DNA of 39,240 nt, taken from positions 1 to 39,240 of IMG/VR virus record IMGVR_UViG_3300024319_000034; one strand, given 5' to 3'. The notes under the pieces were generated by a model, which saw only the letters and a program-made list of their open reading frames with translations, had not been told where the DNA came from and ran no database searches. Source of the DNA: a virus. Below, piece by piece: positions 2,865-9,668 of the stretch; the stretch's first letter is position 1; each line of letters begins with the position of its first letter. The position numbers and the translations under genes were made by a program.

Positions 2865-4289
2865 TTAATTAAATTTTATATTTTCTAGTGTTATGGTGTT
2901 TGTTCCGTAATTCAAATTAACAGTATTTGGTTTTAAATAATACTTGCAATCATCTGAATCGGTAACCGTAAACAATATAAACAATCCATTGTCATCTATT
3001 ATTTGTTTAAAATCACAAAAGGTAATATCAACTGGTTTTAGTTCTATACTCCCATCCGATAGTTCAATCGAGCAGCTACTTATTGAGGGGTTGTCTAAAT
3101 AATGAAACTTCTGGTAAAGTCCATTTGGCGAATCCTTATCAAAGTACAAAGGATAATTCCATTGGTCCTCTGGTGACTTAATAGGATAATTAGTCCCGTT
3201 TTCATTGCCCTTGTTACCGTTGCCATCCCATATTGTTACAACTATATCTGTTTCACTTCTAAACTCGTTAGGTGTCAAGCCTGAGAATTTACCCGTTGTT
3301 TCATCTATCAAAGGTGCATGAAAAGGCATTATTTTTTCACATGATTCCGCTAAAGGGTCGTTATTTTCAGTAAACTCTACAAGTGTACTATATATTGTTT
3401 GTGTTTCAATTACATAGTCAGTAATGCCGGCATATTCATAAGCATATCTAATACTTTTGCAGTTATCATCTTCATTATCAATATATTGCAACTCTATTGC
3501 ATTTGGCGTATAAAAATCTTCTAAACTTATTAATGTGTAATTATCTGAATCCAAAAAATAGGATTTATGTTCAAAAATAAGTTTATTATTGTTGTTTGCG
3601 TCAGTTGTAAAAATAAACTCGGCATTTAGCAATGTTGCAACGTCCTTAATCAAGTCTAACATTGTTCTAGTATTGCTTTTTGTATTTATAAACGAACCTT
3701 GCAGGGTTTGTGCTGAGTTATTGAAGGTAAAACAAAGGTTGTTGTAGGGTTCTGATGCAAGCAAGTTGGATTGTAGTGTCATGCCAGCCTTTTCTAATTG
3801 ATAATTCAATATATCAATAAATAAAAAAGAGGGATAACTAAGCAAACCACTTTCACCGCCTTTGTAATTAATGAAATCTGAATAAAAATTATCGGCTAAA
3901 TAGTCTTTCCACCAATACCGACTATCTAAAAAGTCTTTTCCTTGTTCAATTGTTGAACTTGTCAACATTTCAAACTGTATTTTACAATTGTTAATATCAT
4001 ATTTTACGGTTGACCTTTCTATTATGAAATCCTGCAACGTATCACAACAACTTATATATAATTGAGCGTCAAGGCTTTTGTTATTGCATAAGCTATCACA
4101 ACCGAAAAAATAATCTTTAATAAATTGGTATCCGCTATTTCCGATTACCGATATTTCACCAGTTACCGAAAAAGTCAGCGTTTTATCTTCGCTCAAATCA
4201 ATCGTTTCTGTCAAATCTTGTAAACCTTCAACGTCTGTCAATTCTATTGATATTGCATTGATTTCGTCCGTTAGTGTAATTGTATTCAT
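2865..4289 (-). CDS. Putative tail-tip/baseplate protein, 474 aa
   Basis: Lies directly after the tape measure gene; its ATG shares one base with the tape measure stop (TAATG), so the two are translationally coupled. That position usually holds a distal-tail or baseplate-hub protein. The sequence is acidic and beta-rich, starting MNTITLTDEINAISIELTD, with several cysteines (FGCDSLCN, ISCCDTL) and an aromatic segment SRYWWKDYLADNFYSDF. No peptidase or glycosidase motif is seen. The role is inferred from position; a receptor-binding function is the main alternative. No terminator is visible after the stop, and the next promoter overlaps its downstream flank. Confidence 0.55.
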   Translation of the reverse strand: MNTITLTDEINAISIELTDVEGLQDLTETIDLSEDKTLTFSVTGEISVIGNSGYQFIKDYFFGCDSLCNNKSLDAQLYISCCDTLQDFIIERSTVKYDINNCKIQFEMLTSSTIEQGKDFLDSRYWWKDYLADNFYSDFINYKGGESGLLSYPSFLFIDILNYQLEKAGMTLQSNLLASEPYNNLCFTFNNSAQTLQGSFINTKSNTRTMLDLIKDVATLLNAEFIFTTDANNNNKLIFEHKSYFLDSDNYTLISLEDFYTPNAIELQYIDNEDDNCKSIRYAYEYAGITDYVIETQTIYSTLVEFTENNDPLAESCEKIMPFHAPLIDETTGKFSGLTPNEFRSETDIVVTIWDGNGNKGNENGTNYPIKSPEDQWNYPLYFDKDSPNGLYQKFHYLDNPSISSCSIELSDGSIELKPVDITFCDFKQIIDDNGLFILFTVTDSDDCKYYLKPNTVNLNYGTNTITLENIKFN

Positions 4290-7015
4290 TATCTACGTTT
4301 TTTAATTTTTGACTGTAATCTCATTTGCCTAATGCTCAACCCACGTTCATCAATTTTAACCTCTGTTTTTAGGTTTTTGATGTATCTAAGTAGCTTATCG
4401 TTTTGGGAAATAATACGGTTATTTGTTTCTATTATTTGCTGCGAATCGTCCAAATTACCACCTAAGGTCACTACGCCCTTATCTCTCGTACTTTCTGCTA
4501 ATTTAAGTATATCGGTATGTTTTACACCTAAGTGCCTTAGACGTGCGCTATCGCCTTTAGGGATGACCATCTCGCCTTTTTCCAATTTTGCCATAAATTC
4601 ATTAGATTTCAATTTTCCACCCGTTGCCGTCCCCGTTTCATCTGCATAACTTGTACCATCATGAAAGGTAGGAGTGTTTTTTTGAACCGCCGCTTTTAAC
4701 GTTGCGATACTAGCAATGACTGACGCAATACCCGCAAGTCCTCCAACTAAACCACCTTTCTTAAACAAATCAATAACTAAAGGAACAGCATTAACTAATG
4801 AACTTGTTGCCGCCAATGCACTTTCAATCTTCGCTTGTTTTTGCTGCTGCTCCAAGCTTCTTTGCCTTGCTTTTTCAAGTGTTTCTATCTTTGCTTTTTC
4901 AATTGCGATAACTTCCTCGCTACCTTCTTTTCCACCTTCTACCGCTCTTTTAATACGCTCATCAGCCGCTTTCACTTGTGCATCAATATTATTTAGTCTT
5001 GCTTCTGTTGCTTTGTCATCTGCCGCAAATATGCTACCTGTTATGTCTTGCAATGCGCTTAAACCCTCACGTAATTTTTTGTTATTTTCGCTTTCGGGGT
5101 CAAATAATTTACCTACTTTTTCACCGAATCCTGGTGCTGCACTATCAATTGCACTATTTATTGACTCAGTATCTTTCTTTAGTTGTTCGGGTGATGTAGT
5201 TTGAATATTTAACTTTAAAGGTTCTTGCTTGTCTATTTCAACTTGCATCTTTTCCAATAGTTTTTCAGCCTCTTCCTTTATTATTGATTCTTCAAATAAT
5301 TGGGTTTCAACATCCTCAGCGGTAAATGGTTGAAATGATTCCCTTATTTTCTTCTCTTCTCTTTTTAAAAGTTCTCTAATTAGTTTCGCTTGTTCTTCAA
5401 TTTGTTTTTCTGAACCAACCAAACCAGCTATTGTCCGTTCTGCTGCTGTCCTCGCTTGTTCTATTTGCCGTTGCTCATCATCAATAATAGCCGCATTTTT
5501 TAAATCTATAATATTTTGTAGTGCTTCCTTCTCATCCTTTTCTTTTTTTTCTCTTATTTTTTTTCTTTCTTTTTCATTTATTTTCTCATTTTTTTTAATT
5601 ATTTCGTTTTCTTTATTTCCTCCATCAATAAAATCTGTATCGCCTATCCCTAATTGAGATTTTATATTTTCCTCTATTTCTTTCCTTCTTTGTTGTAAAA
5701 TATTTAGTTCATCCTTTAATATTGAATTATTTTTTTCCCTTGATGTACTTAGATTTAACTGCGCTCGTGTTGCTGAATTTATCCTTATATCATCGTTTGA
5801 GTCTATTGCTTGTTTAACTAAATCAACCCTTTCTTGTAGTGTTTTATTTGTTAAATCTAAACCTAGATTATATTTACTGTTTAATTTGTTTGCTACTTCA
5901 TTGGCTTTCGTTCTTTGTTCCGCTAATCTTCTTGAATTAATTGCAACTTCATTAGATTTCTCTTGTAACTTTTCATCTTCTGCTTGTAGTGCAATTTTTA
6001 AAATATATTGATTATTTACATCAGATAATCTTTTCGATAATTCTTCATTAGTTACTTTTTCAGAATCAAGGTTTGTTAAAAATGCTGGATATTCTTTCTG
6101 TAACTCATTTATTAATTTATTCCTATCCTCTTGCTTTATATTAGCATCTGTTATATTAGTAACTAACAAATTTAGTTCCTCTTGCTCGTTTTTTATTTTT
6201 TTCTCAACTGGAATAGATATAAATTCATTAAATTTATCAACCATTACACCAATTGCCAACCCTACATTTTTGGCAGCGGGTAAAAATTTTAAACCTATAT
6301 TTTTTAGAAGACCACTAAATGCACCTTGCACCGTTGACAATACACCGCCTAAAGTTTTAGATTGATTTATAGTTAGATTGTAAAATTTGCCCCCCTCGCT
6401 AGTTAGACTTATAAAAGCCTCTTCCAAGTTAGAAAAAGATATTTTCCCTTGGCTACCTAGTTTTTTTACTTCCCCCGCACTTACTCCTAACTGTTTTCCA
6501 AACTCTTCTAATATAGGTATCCCCGCCTCCGTTAATTGGTTTATATCCTCAGCAAATAACGTTCCTTGTACTCTTGCTTTTCCATATATCACCGCTAACT
6601 CATTAAAGTTTTTACCTGTGCCAGCACTTAAATCGCCAATAGCTTCTAAGGATGGAATTAATTTATTTTGTGATATTCCAAAAGCTAACAAAGCCTTACC
6701 CGCTTGGTTTACTTCCTCTGGCGTAAATGGTGTTTTTAGTGAAAACTTATTTAAATCTTTTAATACTTTTTCCGCTTTTCTTGCCGAACCTAAAAACGCT
6801 TCAAAACTAACTTTTGTTTTTTCTGATTGAATAGCTAACGCTGCTATATCTCTAGTAATTTTAAAAGCAATTGCACCGCCTAAAATTCTCTTTAATGATG
6901 TAATTGATTTTTTTAAATTGTCGGTTGATGTAGTTGATTTTTTTAAATCCTTTTGATATTCCTTAGATTTCAATATCAATCTAAGTATTACATTATTGTC
7001 GCTAATATTTGCCAT
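4289..7015 (-). CDS. Tail tape measure protein, 908 aa
   Basis: Scaffolds tail assembly, sets tail length and is ejected with the DNA. The N-terminal 250 residues contain the tape-measure domain: helices around FEAFLGSARKAEKVLKDL, the conserved TPFTPEEVNQAGKALLAFG, and GISQNKLIPSLEAIGDLSAG. Long coiled-coil stretches follow (about 270-720, with E/K-rich runs), then a Gly/Ala hydrophobic segment near 750-790 (GGLVGGLAGIASVIASI) that could insert into the membrane. At the usual 0.15 nm per residue, 908 residues predict a tail of about 135 nm, so a siphovirus. It follows the chaperone-like gene and is coupled to the tail-tip gene. Confidence 0.9.
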   Translation of the reverse strand: MANISDNNVILRLILKSKEYQKDLKKSTTSTDNLKKSITSLKRILGGAIAFKITRDIAALAIQSEKTKVSFEAFLGSARKAEKVLKDLNKFSLKTPFTPEEVNQAGKALLAFGISQNKLIPSLEAIGDLSAGTGKNFNELAVIYGKARVQGTLFAEDINQLTEAGIPILEEFGKQLGVSAGEVKKLGSQGKISFSNLEEAFISLTSEGGKFYNLTINQSKTLGGVLSTVQGAFSGLLKNIGLKFLPAAKNVGLAIGVMVDKFNEFISIPVEKKIKNEQEELNLLVTNITDANIKQEDRNKLINELQKEYPAFLTNLDSEKVTNEELSKRLSDVNNQYILKIALQAEDEKLQEKSNEVAINSRRLAEQRTKANEVANKLNSKYNLGLDLTNKTLQERVDLVKQAIDSNDDIRINSATRAQLNLSTSREKNNSILKDELNILQQRRKEIEENIKSQLGIGDTDFIDGGNKENEIIKKNEKINEKERKKIREKKEKDEKEALQNIIDLKNAAIIDDEQRQIEQARTAAERTIAGLVGSEKQIEEQAKLIRELLKREEKKIRESFQPFTAEDVETQLFEESIIKEEAEKLLEKMQVEIDKQEPLKLNIQTTSPEQLKKDTESINSAIDSAAPGFGEKVGKLFDPESENNKKLREGLSALQDITGSIFAADDKATEARLNNIDAQVKAADERIKRAVEGGKEGSEEVIAIEKAKIETLEKARQRSLEQQQKQAKIESALAATSSLVNAVPLVIDLFKKGGLVGGLAGIASVIASIATLKAAVQKNTPTFHDGTSYADETGTATGGKLKSNEFMAKLEKGEMVIPKGDSARLRHLGVKHTDILKLAESTRDKGVVTLGGNLDDSQQIIETNNRIISQNDKLLRYIKNLKTEVKIDERGLSIRQMRLQSKIKKRR

Positions 7016-7037
7016 TTTTCTATATTTTAAAAGGTGT

Positions 7038-7750
7038 TTAGTTTCCTTGATTATTTAACCTTTCTATTTTTCGTTTCAACAACATTAAAACTTCGTAAAC
7101 TTCGCCTATACTCATTTCATCTGCCTTATATCCGTTTTCTTTGAGGTAGTGGATTTCATCGTTAGCTGAGTCCAAAACTAGCTGTAAATCTTTTTGTTGA
7201 TTTGACTTAAAAACACTTTTTCGTTTTTTCGCCCTATATCCGTTCTCAAATAGTCCTCTATTTTTGTATCCTTTGATAAAATGCTCATAGCTTTCAGAAT
7301 ATCTATTGAAACTTTCAAAAAAAAAAATTCAATAGCCTGAGAATTTTCGCAAAGTTCTTTTTTCTTTAAGCTGTATTTATCGCTTAATTCTTTGTCGTTT
7401 TCCCCATCTAATAAAATAAAACAATTTGCAATCTCCCATAAAACCCTAGTTGATGTATATTCGTTTAGATTTGACTTCATGTAATTAGCCAATGCGGAAA
7501 TATCGTTGCTTTTTCGGTTTTCATTAGCTTCTAAAATCATATCTAGTGCGATATTAATATCACTTTTTAACAACCCATAATCCACGTTTTTTGTGGCATA
7601 TTGAAACGCAATAAAACGTTTGTATGCGGTTGAACCGAAATCTTTTATAACTCTAAATCTTTGCCCAGCTATCCAATGCTCATCGTAGATGCTTTCTGTT
7701 TTGTCCGTTTTTTCCGTTATTACGTTCCAAATTCTTTTTAATTTACTCAT
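7038..7750 (-). CDS. Tail assembly chaperone, -1 frameshift fusion (gpGT-like), about 237 aa
   Basis: If ribosomes slip back one base at A AAA AAC (7229-7223), 176 residues of the short form are joined to 61 residues read in the -1 frame, ending at TAA 7040-7038. The extension begins RKSVFKSNQQKDLQLVLDS and continues as an amphipathic, charged helical sequence with IHYLKENGYKADEMS and a closing KRKIERLNNQGN. It has no start codon near its 5' end, fills the otherwise empty 160 bp before the tape measure, and has protein-like composition. In lambda and many other phages a G/GT pair made this way is required for tail assembly. The slip site is inferred; C AAA AAG at 7196-7190 is the alternative. 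Confidence 0.65.
7178..7750 (-). CDS. Tail assembly chaperone candidate, short form (gpG-like), 190 aa
   Basis: Starts with an ATGA overlap on the large terminase gene and lies just ahead of the tape measure, the classic site of tail assembly chaperones that keep the tape measure soluble. The sequence is mainly helical (YGLLKSDINIALDMILEANENR) with no transmembrane segment. Near its 3' end are two frame-0 slip candidates, A AAA AAC and C AAA AAG, and the -1 frame stays open far past this stop. It would be the major, non-shifted product. Identity rests on position, size and frameshift architecture rather than on sequence recognition. Confidence 0.65.
   Translation of the reverse strand: MSKLKRIWNVITEKTDKTESIYDEHWIAGQRFRVIKDFGSTAYKRFIAFQYATKNVDYGLLKSDINIALDMILEANENRKSNDISALANYMKSNLNEYTSTRVLWEIANCFILLDGENDKELSDKYSLKKKELCENSQAIEFFFLKVSIDILKAMSILSKDTKIEDYLRTDIGRKNEKVFLSQINKKIYS
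7223..7229 (-). promoter_or_regulatory. Candidate -1 slippery heptamer A AAA AAC
   Basis: In frame 0 the codons are CGA AAA AAC, so the heptamer has the X XXY YYZ form and allows both tRNAs to re-pair after a -1 slip. The reading phase of the downstream open frame (stop at 7040-7038) is exactly -1. I see no strong stimulatory hairpin immediately downstream. Confidence 0.55.
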
Positions 7751-9153
7751 AGTTTTATCTTAATCTTCGACTTTGTTTTATTAATCTTTTCTTTCCTTAT
7801 TTCGTGTTTCTCTTTTAGTATTTTGTTAGTTTTGTTGCTGTTGTTTATTAAGTTTTTTGCTCGGTCTATTTCTTCAATAGTTGGAAAAAGTAAATTAATC
7901 GCATAGCGGAATGTGTCCACTAGGTGCAAATCAATCTTTTTTGATAGTTTCCCCGCATCCGTTGGAATAGCTTGTTTAATTTCGCTAATTAATGACTTGC
8001 AATTGACCTCATCAAAAACAATAGGCAATTTGTACAAAGCATCATTACAAATTCGCCTTGAATGTTCGTGTAATGCGTTAGCCTTTTTGGTTACTGCGCT
8101 AATCGGTTGCAAAAAATATTCCTCAATCTCAGAATAACACGTAACATTTCCACCAGCGGCGGAACGAGAATGTCCGTTATTGTCGCCCGTTATTATTAGA
8201 TTATATTTTTTAAATTGCTCCAATTTATCTAATAATTTTCTTAATCCACCATTCGACTCATAGCTATACAAAAACCTTATTCCTTTTACATAATCAAATT
8301 GAAAAACACAAACAGTTGAGGGATTGTAGTTGAAATCAAACGACAAATAAACATTTTGTGTGTCTATGATTTTTAAATCCTTTTTTACGTGTTTTTCATG
8401 CTTAAATTCATAAAAGAAAGGGTTTTCGTTTAAATTTAAATTCCAGTCGCCCTCCAATAGCATCTTATACATTAAAGGACTCAAATTATCCTTTTGCATC
8501 TGAATCCAATCTTTCTCCACATAAGGATTATCTACAACATTTGCAGGAATGTATTTCCATGACTTTTTCAATGTCCCCTTTACCCATTTGTCGTATATTT
8601 CAGATTTAACCCAGCCTTGCTGCGGGTTGCTTGTACCCAATACAATCTGAGGGGGAATTGCTCGACCTTGTTCCTTCGATTGTTTCCTATCACCCATTTT
8701 CCAAGTACCTGTCCTTTGTAAGCCCATCATGAAGCCCTCGAAGCTAACATCCATTTCCTCCATGCCAAAGCCATCTGCCTCTAATCCGCGAAACCTTTTC
8801 AAATCTGGGTCACGGTCTTTGTTCTCAGCAAAAAAAACAATGGAAGAACCATTTTTAAATTTTGCTGTAAAACTATTGTGCTGCGTAGGTTCGTTAACCA
8901 GGAACTCAGGCGGGCAAATATTGTAGAAGGTCGGGAAAACTGTAGATTTTATACGTTGTAAGTTCTTACGGACTATTATATACTTAGCCCCTGGAAATAG
9001 CTTACACATAAAAATGAAAAAGGCTAGGATGAAATAAGTCTTACCGCTCCTTACGCTGCCGCCCGCGAGTACAAACTGATACTTTCCACTAGCTGCAATT
9101 TCAAACCAACGCTCCTGGGCTGGAAAGGGTTTAAATAATATATTCTCCTTCAT
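7747..9153 (-). CDS. terL: Terminase large subunit, 468 aa
   Basis: The packaging motor: an ATPase that translocates DNA into the prohead and a nuclease that cuts it. Walker A is GGSVRSGKT (31-39); the Walker B region is FRGLEADGFGMEEMD (121-135), with acidic residues at the catalytic site. The C-terminal RNase H-like nuclease shows its three acidic positions in SFDFNYNP (D273), TGDNNGHS (D324) and HLVDTFRY (D413). The length is normal. The ATG overlaps the stop of the HNH gene by one base, and the stop overlaps the next gene by ATGA. Usually a portal gene follows; here a tail chaperone candidate does, so the head genes have been separated from the terminase. Confidence 0.93.
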   Translation of the reverse strand: MKENILFKPFPAQERWFEIAASGKYQFVLAGGSVRSGKTYFILAFFIFMCKLFPGAKYIIVRKNLQRIKSTVFPTFYNICPPEFLVNEPTQHNSFTAKFKNGSSIVFFAENKDRDPDLKRFRGLEADGFGMEEMDVSFEGFMMGLQRTGTWKMGDRKQSKEQGRAIPPQIVLGTSNPQQGWVKSEIYDKWVKGTLKKSWKYIPANVVDNPYVEKDWIQMQKDNLSPLMYKMLLEGDWNLNLNENPFFYEFKHEKHVKKDLKIIDTQNVYLSFDFNYNPSTVCVFQFDYVKGIRFLYSYESNGGLRKLLDKLEQFKKYNLIITGDNNGHSRSAAGGNVTCYSEIEEYFLQPISAVTKKANALHEHSRRICNDALYKLPIVFDEVNCKSLISEIKQAIPTDAGKLSKKIDLHLVDTFRYAINLLFPTIEEIDRAKNLINNSNKTNKILKEKHEIRKEKINKTKSKIKIKL

Positions 9154-9668
9154 TAATCAATTGTTACGTGTTTCCATTTCCTCCCCCTTTTTATATCTGA
9201 GATTGTGGCTGGGTTTACCCCGTATTTCCGACCTAAATCGTTATTAATTCCCCTATAAGGTTTTAGTAACTCTGTTTTAATTTCGACTACATTTTTATCT
9301 GTTAATTTAGCCCGATTATTATTTTCCCCTTTATTACAAGCTAACCCCGTCCTAAATGCATGTTTAACGTTTTCTGAGCCTGTGCAATACTCTAAATTAA
9401 GGAAATTATTATTTTTTTTGTTCCCATCAATGTGATTAACCTGTAAATCACTTTCTCCGTGAAATGTCAACATAATTAATCTATGTACTGCAAAATGAAC
9501 TCTTTTTTTGTTTTTGAATAATCTTACAGCCAAATAACCATACATAGTAATAACGGGTTTCAATTTCCTGCGTTCCCCAGTCTTATTATAATTTAATGAA
9601 TACACATTGCCGAAAATATCGCATTCGTAATCTTCATACCCAGGAACTACTTTTACTTCTGATATCAT
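9153..9668 (-). CDS. HNH homing endonuclease with NUMOD4-like N-terminus, 171 aa
   Basis: The N-terminus (VVPGYEDYECDIFGNVYSL) is a NUMOD4-like DNA-binding module. The HNH core follows: VHRLIMLTFHGE, then VNHIDGNKKNNNFLNLEYCT, with the H-N-H order intact. A C-terminal helix-turn-helix (DLGRKYGVNPATISDIKRGRKW) gives further DNA contacts. Family members are site-specific endonucleases, usually free-standing homing genes. It is wedged between the small and large terminase genes with an 11-nt gap on one side and a TAATG overlap on the other, so it is expressed with them. It is either a selfish gene or, as in some phages, a helper of terminase in cos cleavage. Confidence 0.88.
   Translation of the reverse strand: MISEVKVVPGYEDYECDIFGNVYSLNYNKTGERRKLKPVITMYGYLAVRLFKNKKRVHFAVHRLIMLTFHGESDLQVNHIDGNKKNNNFLNLEYCTGSENVKHAFRTGLACNKGENNNRAKLTDKNVVEIKTELLKPYRGINNDLGRKYGVNPATISDIKRGRKWKHVTID

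Follow-up and report, generated by a model that had tools for sequence, protein, structure and literature searches.

A probable tail-assembly chaperone pair expressed through a poly-T slip site, with a long doubly coded overlap, in a family of uncultured phages

In the 39,240-nucleotide stretch of viral DNA analysed here (IMG/VR record IMGVR_UViG_3300024319_000034, hereafter the window), the gene directly before the tape measure gene very probably encodes a pair of tail-assembly chaperones, a short form of 190 residues and a long form of about 237 residues that is reached by a -1 slip on a run of T's. The proposed mechanism is as follows. Most ribosomes would translate the gene in frame 0 and release the 190-residue short form. 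On the U-run (T_TTT_TTT / T_TTT_TTG, 7325-7316), a fraction of them would move back by one base and produce the long form, which would share residues 1-144 with the short form and continue with about 92 residues encoded in the -1 frame. The predicted junction is a Phe or Leu at position 145, then ESFNRYSESYEHFIK. By analogy with phage λ, the domain common to both forms would coat the tape measure protein, the product of the next gene, and the tail found only in the long form would recruit the tail tube protein. Pairs of the G/GT kind are themselves known, with two products that are required for tail assembly and do not appear in the virion; new here are the family, not described before, the poly-T nature of the slip site and the length of the doubly coded overlap. 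The features are collected in Table 1.

Table 1. Positions of the chaperone gene, its frameshift elements and its neighbours in the window.
Feature	Position	Strand	Basis or remark
Slip site, T11 then G	7316..7327	minus	T-run found at the homologous position, and in register, in all 79 distinct relatives
In-register heptamers	T_TTT_TTT 7325-7319; T_TTT_TTG 7322-7316	minus	
Short product, frame 0, 190 aa	7178..7750	minus	ORF
Parts of the short product			residues 1-144, N-terminal (G-like) domain; residues 145-190, frame-0 tail
-1 tail of the predicted long product	7038..7316	minus	about 92 residues + TAA; open frame, codon usage, hhalign, family pN/pS
Stretch probably coding in frame 0 and -1	7181..7316	minus	inferred in the window from constraint in relatives
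Tape measure protein gene	4289..7015	minus	PHROG tape measure families, best E 7.5e-58
Terminase large subunit gene	7747..9153	minus	phrog_2, E 3.8e-28; neighbour also in relatives
A_AAA_AAC	7223..7229	minus	judged incidental; not conserved

The layout of this part of the minus strand is terminase small subunit, HNH endonuclease, terminase large subunit, chaperone gene, tape measure. The terminase large subunit gene and the chaperone gene overlap, the stop of the former with the start of the latter, and the tape measure gene begins 22 nt past the stop of the -1 tail. The HNH endonuclease gene, at 9153-9668, lies between the two terminase subunit genes. The unusual order in which the terminase large subunit is followed directly by the chaperone and the tape measure (window 4289-9153) is also found in L016, L028 and L074. 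Portal, capsid and tail tube genes were not clearly recognised by PHROGs in the window, and its segment at 26-39 kb holds large genes without assignment.

A reading of the window made from its letters alone had described a 190-codon gene ending at 7178 and a -1 frame that stays open to 7038. Both are as described: the frame-0 gene ends with TAG at 7180-7178, and the -1 frame ends with TAA at 7040-7038, 46 codons beyond the frame-0 stop. The same reading had the -1 frame open from far upstream, which is not the case. The frame opens only at 7328, after a TGA at 7331-7329, and this opening coincides with the 5′ end of the T11 run (7327-7317), which is longer than any other T-run of the coding strand. 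With 18 stops in the approximately 200 codons upstream and then 96 stop-free codons, the open -1 stretch is longer than expected by chance. Codon statistics trained on the window genome itself favour frame 0 up to the A AAA AAC heptamer, are neutral from there to the frame-0 stop, and from the frame-0 stop to the -1 stop give the -1 frame an advantage of 7.0 log units over frame 0.

Searches with the window protein matched only two near-identical contigs, and these direct homology searches gave no match to a named phage. Relatives were reached instead by way of the tape measure N-terminal domain, through an alignment with Bacteroidota phages that led to 80 viral contigs; more were added by searches with the chaperone protein family and then with the -1 tail. 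Most contigs carry a terminase large subunit, a protein of about 190-200 aa and a tape measure, with an open -1 frame between the last two. Bacterial genomes were also searched for relatives and none was found. The relatives discussed below are 79 distinct IMG/VR sequences, that is, 78 that enter the run-length count and the very divergent L013; the count itself took in 80 distinct sequences, these 78 together with the window and its near copy. All counts rest on metagenomic contigs, and the relatives are not independent samples; the pairs used to estimate selection employ each sequence once. Some contigs have peculiarities of their own. One 36.7-kb contig (IMGVR_UViG_3300020017_000024; L170/L171) has the chaperone region twice, 89% identical over 3.3 kb, which is either a chimeric assembly or a tandem arrangement. 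L114 has a tail fragment in the +1 frame, the result of a sequencing error or a dying gene. In L174, flagged as having no run, inspection revealed a T9 run, and an internal TAG in its N domain is again either a sequencing error or a mark of a dying gene.

In the relatives, the T-run lies in register as T_TTT_TTT, precisely where the shared N-terminal domain stops and the -1 tail begins, and it forms invariant columns of the DNA alignment. Its length varies: of the 78 relatives, 29 have T7, one has T8 and 48 have T9, and the window and the near copy have T11. What is conserved, beyond mere length, is the register of the run relative to frame 0. The two Phe codons at the run are TTT in all 158 instances in the 79 relatives, against 53% elsewhere in the same genes (542 TTT, 477 TTC). 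In L013, the chaperone has diverged too far to be matched by the family HMM, but the tape measure N-terminal domain is 66% identical; here, too, there is a T9 in the same register and an open -1 frame.

The -1 tail is present in every relative (122 loci). When the search starts from the tail instead, 79 of 80 loci have it in the -1 frame with respect to the N domain, the remaining locus being one without an N-domain match, and at 0/80 loci do the tail and the N domain share an open frame. A check of the relatives' -1 frame for stops, proposed at the outset, gave an outcome that favours frameshifting. These data also bear on the reading in which the gene is decayed or mis-assembled, the T11 being a sequencing error and the true gene lying in one frame. 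Long homopolymers are indeed prone to misreading; however, the T11 is identical in three near-identical assemblies (the window included), no relative has both parts in one open frame, and both frames are under selection. Error or decay is already refuted for the family, and for the window we regard it as the most improbable of the explanations considered.

Selection was assessed with pN/pS in 26 independent pairs of relatives. Before the T-run, frame 0 gives 0.13. From the T-run to the frame-0 stop, frame 0 gives 0.49, the -1 frame 0.42 and the control frame 2.33, and past the frame-0 stop the -1 frame gives 0.13. The -1 tail of the relatives is therefore under purifying selection, and about 40 codons are meaningful and conserved in each of the two overlapping frames. 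Counted in 24-nt bins, changes at second and at third positions are both common over the first 120 nt or so from the T-run; further on, second-position changes, which are third-position changes of the -1 frame, dominate. This pattern of substitution indicates that both frames are constrained from the T-run on and places the change of frame at the T-run. In the window itself, the constraint seen in relatives suggests that 7181-7316 is likewise doubly coding.

The -1 stretch past the frame-0 stop might also be a separate small gene, translated from a TTG or ATG by reinitiation after the chaperone stop. The sequence-only reading had seen no start codon near the 5′ end of its extension. This is correct for ATG, the first of which is at codon 67 after the T-run; there is, in addition, a TTG at codon 47, only a few bases after the frame-0 stop, and both would be available to such a gene. 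Against it, selection on the -1 frame of the relatives starts right after the T-run, far before the first ATG/GTG/TTG (median 50 codons past the run; 62 for the first ATG), and the T-run itself is conserved. We consider an independent small gene very improbable.

A slip on the T-run differs from the original proposal, in which the shift would take place at A AAA AAC and append a 61-residue -1 tail. The heptamer is present in frame 0 at 7229-7223, as claimed, and two observations are in its favour: between the T-run and the heptamer, codon usage favours frame 0 by 4.3 log units, and over the same interval the frame-0 tail is the better match to the relatives. However, the codon statistic after the run comes out alike in relatives where selection on both frames is proven (mean 4.8, sd 5.4). 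The 4.3 of the window resembles this mean and so is no argument against use of the -1 frame after the T-run. Moreover, the -1 frame opens exactly at the T-run. Of the two features whose conservation was to be looked for, the -1 frame is conserved in the relatives and the heptamer occurs in 0/79 of them; the window genome has 13 in-frame copies, 2 of them in the chaperone gene. A shift at A AAA AAC is accordingly improbable. The three near-identical assemblies have three differences among them, two upstream of A AAA AAC that are silent in frame 0 and one downstream of it that is silent in -1. With the T-run as the slip site, about 90 nt further upstream, the -1 part of the long protein grows from 61 to about 92 residues and the middle of the protein is a different one. 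The general proposal, a G/GT-like pair made by -1 frameshifting just before the tape measure, is supported by the purifying selection on the relatives' -1 tail.

A slip on the T-run could be made by the ribosome or by RNA polymerase. In the latter case, slippage on T11 would yield mRNAs with altered numbers of U's, and the protein products would be nearly identical. According to literature cited in PMC3711429, T-runs of such length make RNA polymerase slip, and the run is T11 in the window and T9 in most relatives. The lack of a stimulatory RNA structure in our searches also fits a polymerase slip: no consensus pairs were seen after the run, a single one of the nine contigs tested (L032) folded clearly better than shuffles, and a search of Rfam gave no match. 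On the other hand, 29 of the 78 relatives have exactly seven T's, a slippery heptamer in register that is short for the polymerase, and the register of the run against frame 0, rather than its length alone, is what has been kept. Since seven is the minimum for tandem tRNA slippage, these 29 relatives fit the ribosome better. Polymerase slippage is thus a possible but rather unlikely source of the long form, and slippage in the window phage is probably mainly ribosomal. U_UUU_UUU does not stand out among shift sites in E. coli, where A_AAA_AAG is the more shift-prone of the two (PMC5009743), and the efficiency here is therefore expected to be modest; for two other chaperone genes, frameshift efficiencies of 6-7% have been measured (PMC3711429).

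The window gene is matched by an N-domain HMM of the family, built with the window and its near copy left out, at E 6.6e-10, and the match ends at the Phe run. Scored with the frame-0 family model, the window gains 9.6 bits from its frame-0 tail beyond what the N domain gives, more than any of 300 shuffles. The -1 tail of the window adds only 3 bits to the -1 family model, and HMMER found nothing at E<1 between it and the family tail. With hhalign, its C-terminal half is colinear with the family tail (P 0.0045; 1/150 shuffles as good), and the first 33 residues after the T-run showed no similarity to the family tail in profile comparison.

Tail-assembly chaperones are often too divergent to be detected by sequence similarity. 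Here, PHROGs, Pfam, PDB sequences and phage records gave no significant sequence match to a named chaperone family. The short form and the -1 tail were folded separately. In the AlphaFold model of the short form, which is of moderate confidence (mean pLDDT 66.8), a β hairpin precedes helices. Among PDB structures, the model comes closest to the tail assembly chaperone of HK97, gp13 (2OB9), a weak match (Z 4.1, rmsd 5.4, 7% identity, 97/104 residues) in which the hairpin and the helices after it are in common and the window protein is the longer. Weak as it is, the match points to a protein of the sort expected here. A Foldseek search with the short form had no significant match among PDB structures or viral models; its weak viral matches include several proteins annotated as tail assembly chaperones. 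The -1 tail is predicted to be helical, and Foldseek of its model gave no PDB match. The marks of G/GT chaperones are the position before the tape measure and the two-product design (PMC5009743), and the window gene has this position and two predicted products; a chaperone function is probable.

The predicted pair resembles gpG/gpGT of phage λ and other -1 frameshifted chaperones (Xu, Hendrix and Duda 2004; reviewed in PMC5009743) in having a short form and a -1 extended form, in lying directly before the tape measure and in using a slip site of the XXXYYYZ type. It differs from them in having no detectable sequence similarity, in that the slip site is a T-run, and in its upstream neighbour, which is the terminase large subunit rather than the major tail protein. 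It also departs from the usual form in the place of the slip site, which in annotated chaperones averages 26 and 36 nt before the frame-0 stop (PMC10885494), compared with 139 nt in the window and 112-183 nt in the relatives. Slip predictors that expect proximity to the stop would misplace such a site, as the sequence-only reading did.

Other phages have related or comparable arrangements. In the Bacteroidota phages p00 and Riemerella CRP19, the tape measure has the shared N-terminal domain, and a second frame is likewise open in -1 before it; no in-register T-run slip site was found in the overlap of their genes at the chaperone position. In L080, L081, L087 and L090 (about 2591-2600), other proteins precede the tape measure, A AAA AAA / A AAA AAG is in register, and the -1 frame of the overlap runs 81 codons past the stop, which makes these likely members of another frameshifted chaperone family. 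In Cellulophaga phage phi39:1 (L007, 10330-11056), gp19 and gp20 are annotated as two genes before the tape measure; as open frames they overlap at an A-run (about 10689) in a +1/-2 relation, possibly a different kind of shift.

Since the slip site is far from the frame-0 stop, the short form carries a C-terminal segment of its own. We are inclined to think that this segment, of about 45 residues, is conserved in its own right and overprinted on the -1 tail, and that a bare U-run, free of a stimulatory structure, would pick between two functional C-termini rather than merely append an extension. The T-only slip site, with no evident stimulator, is a clean system in which ribosomal and transcriptional slippage may be told apart, and the family is a natural case in which selection keeps about 40 codons meaningful in two frames. 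For this widespread group of uncultured phages, the analysis identifies the probable, hitherto unannotated tail chaperone and gives the likely sequence of its long form, which gene callers had missed.
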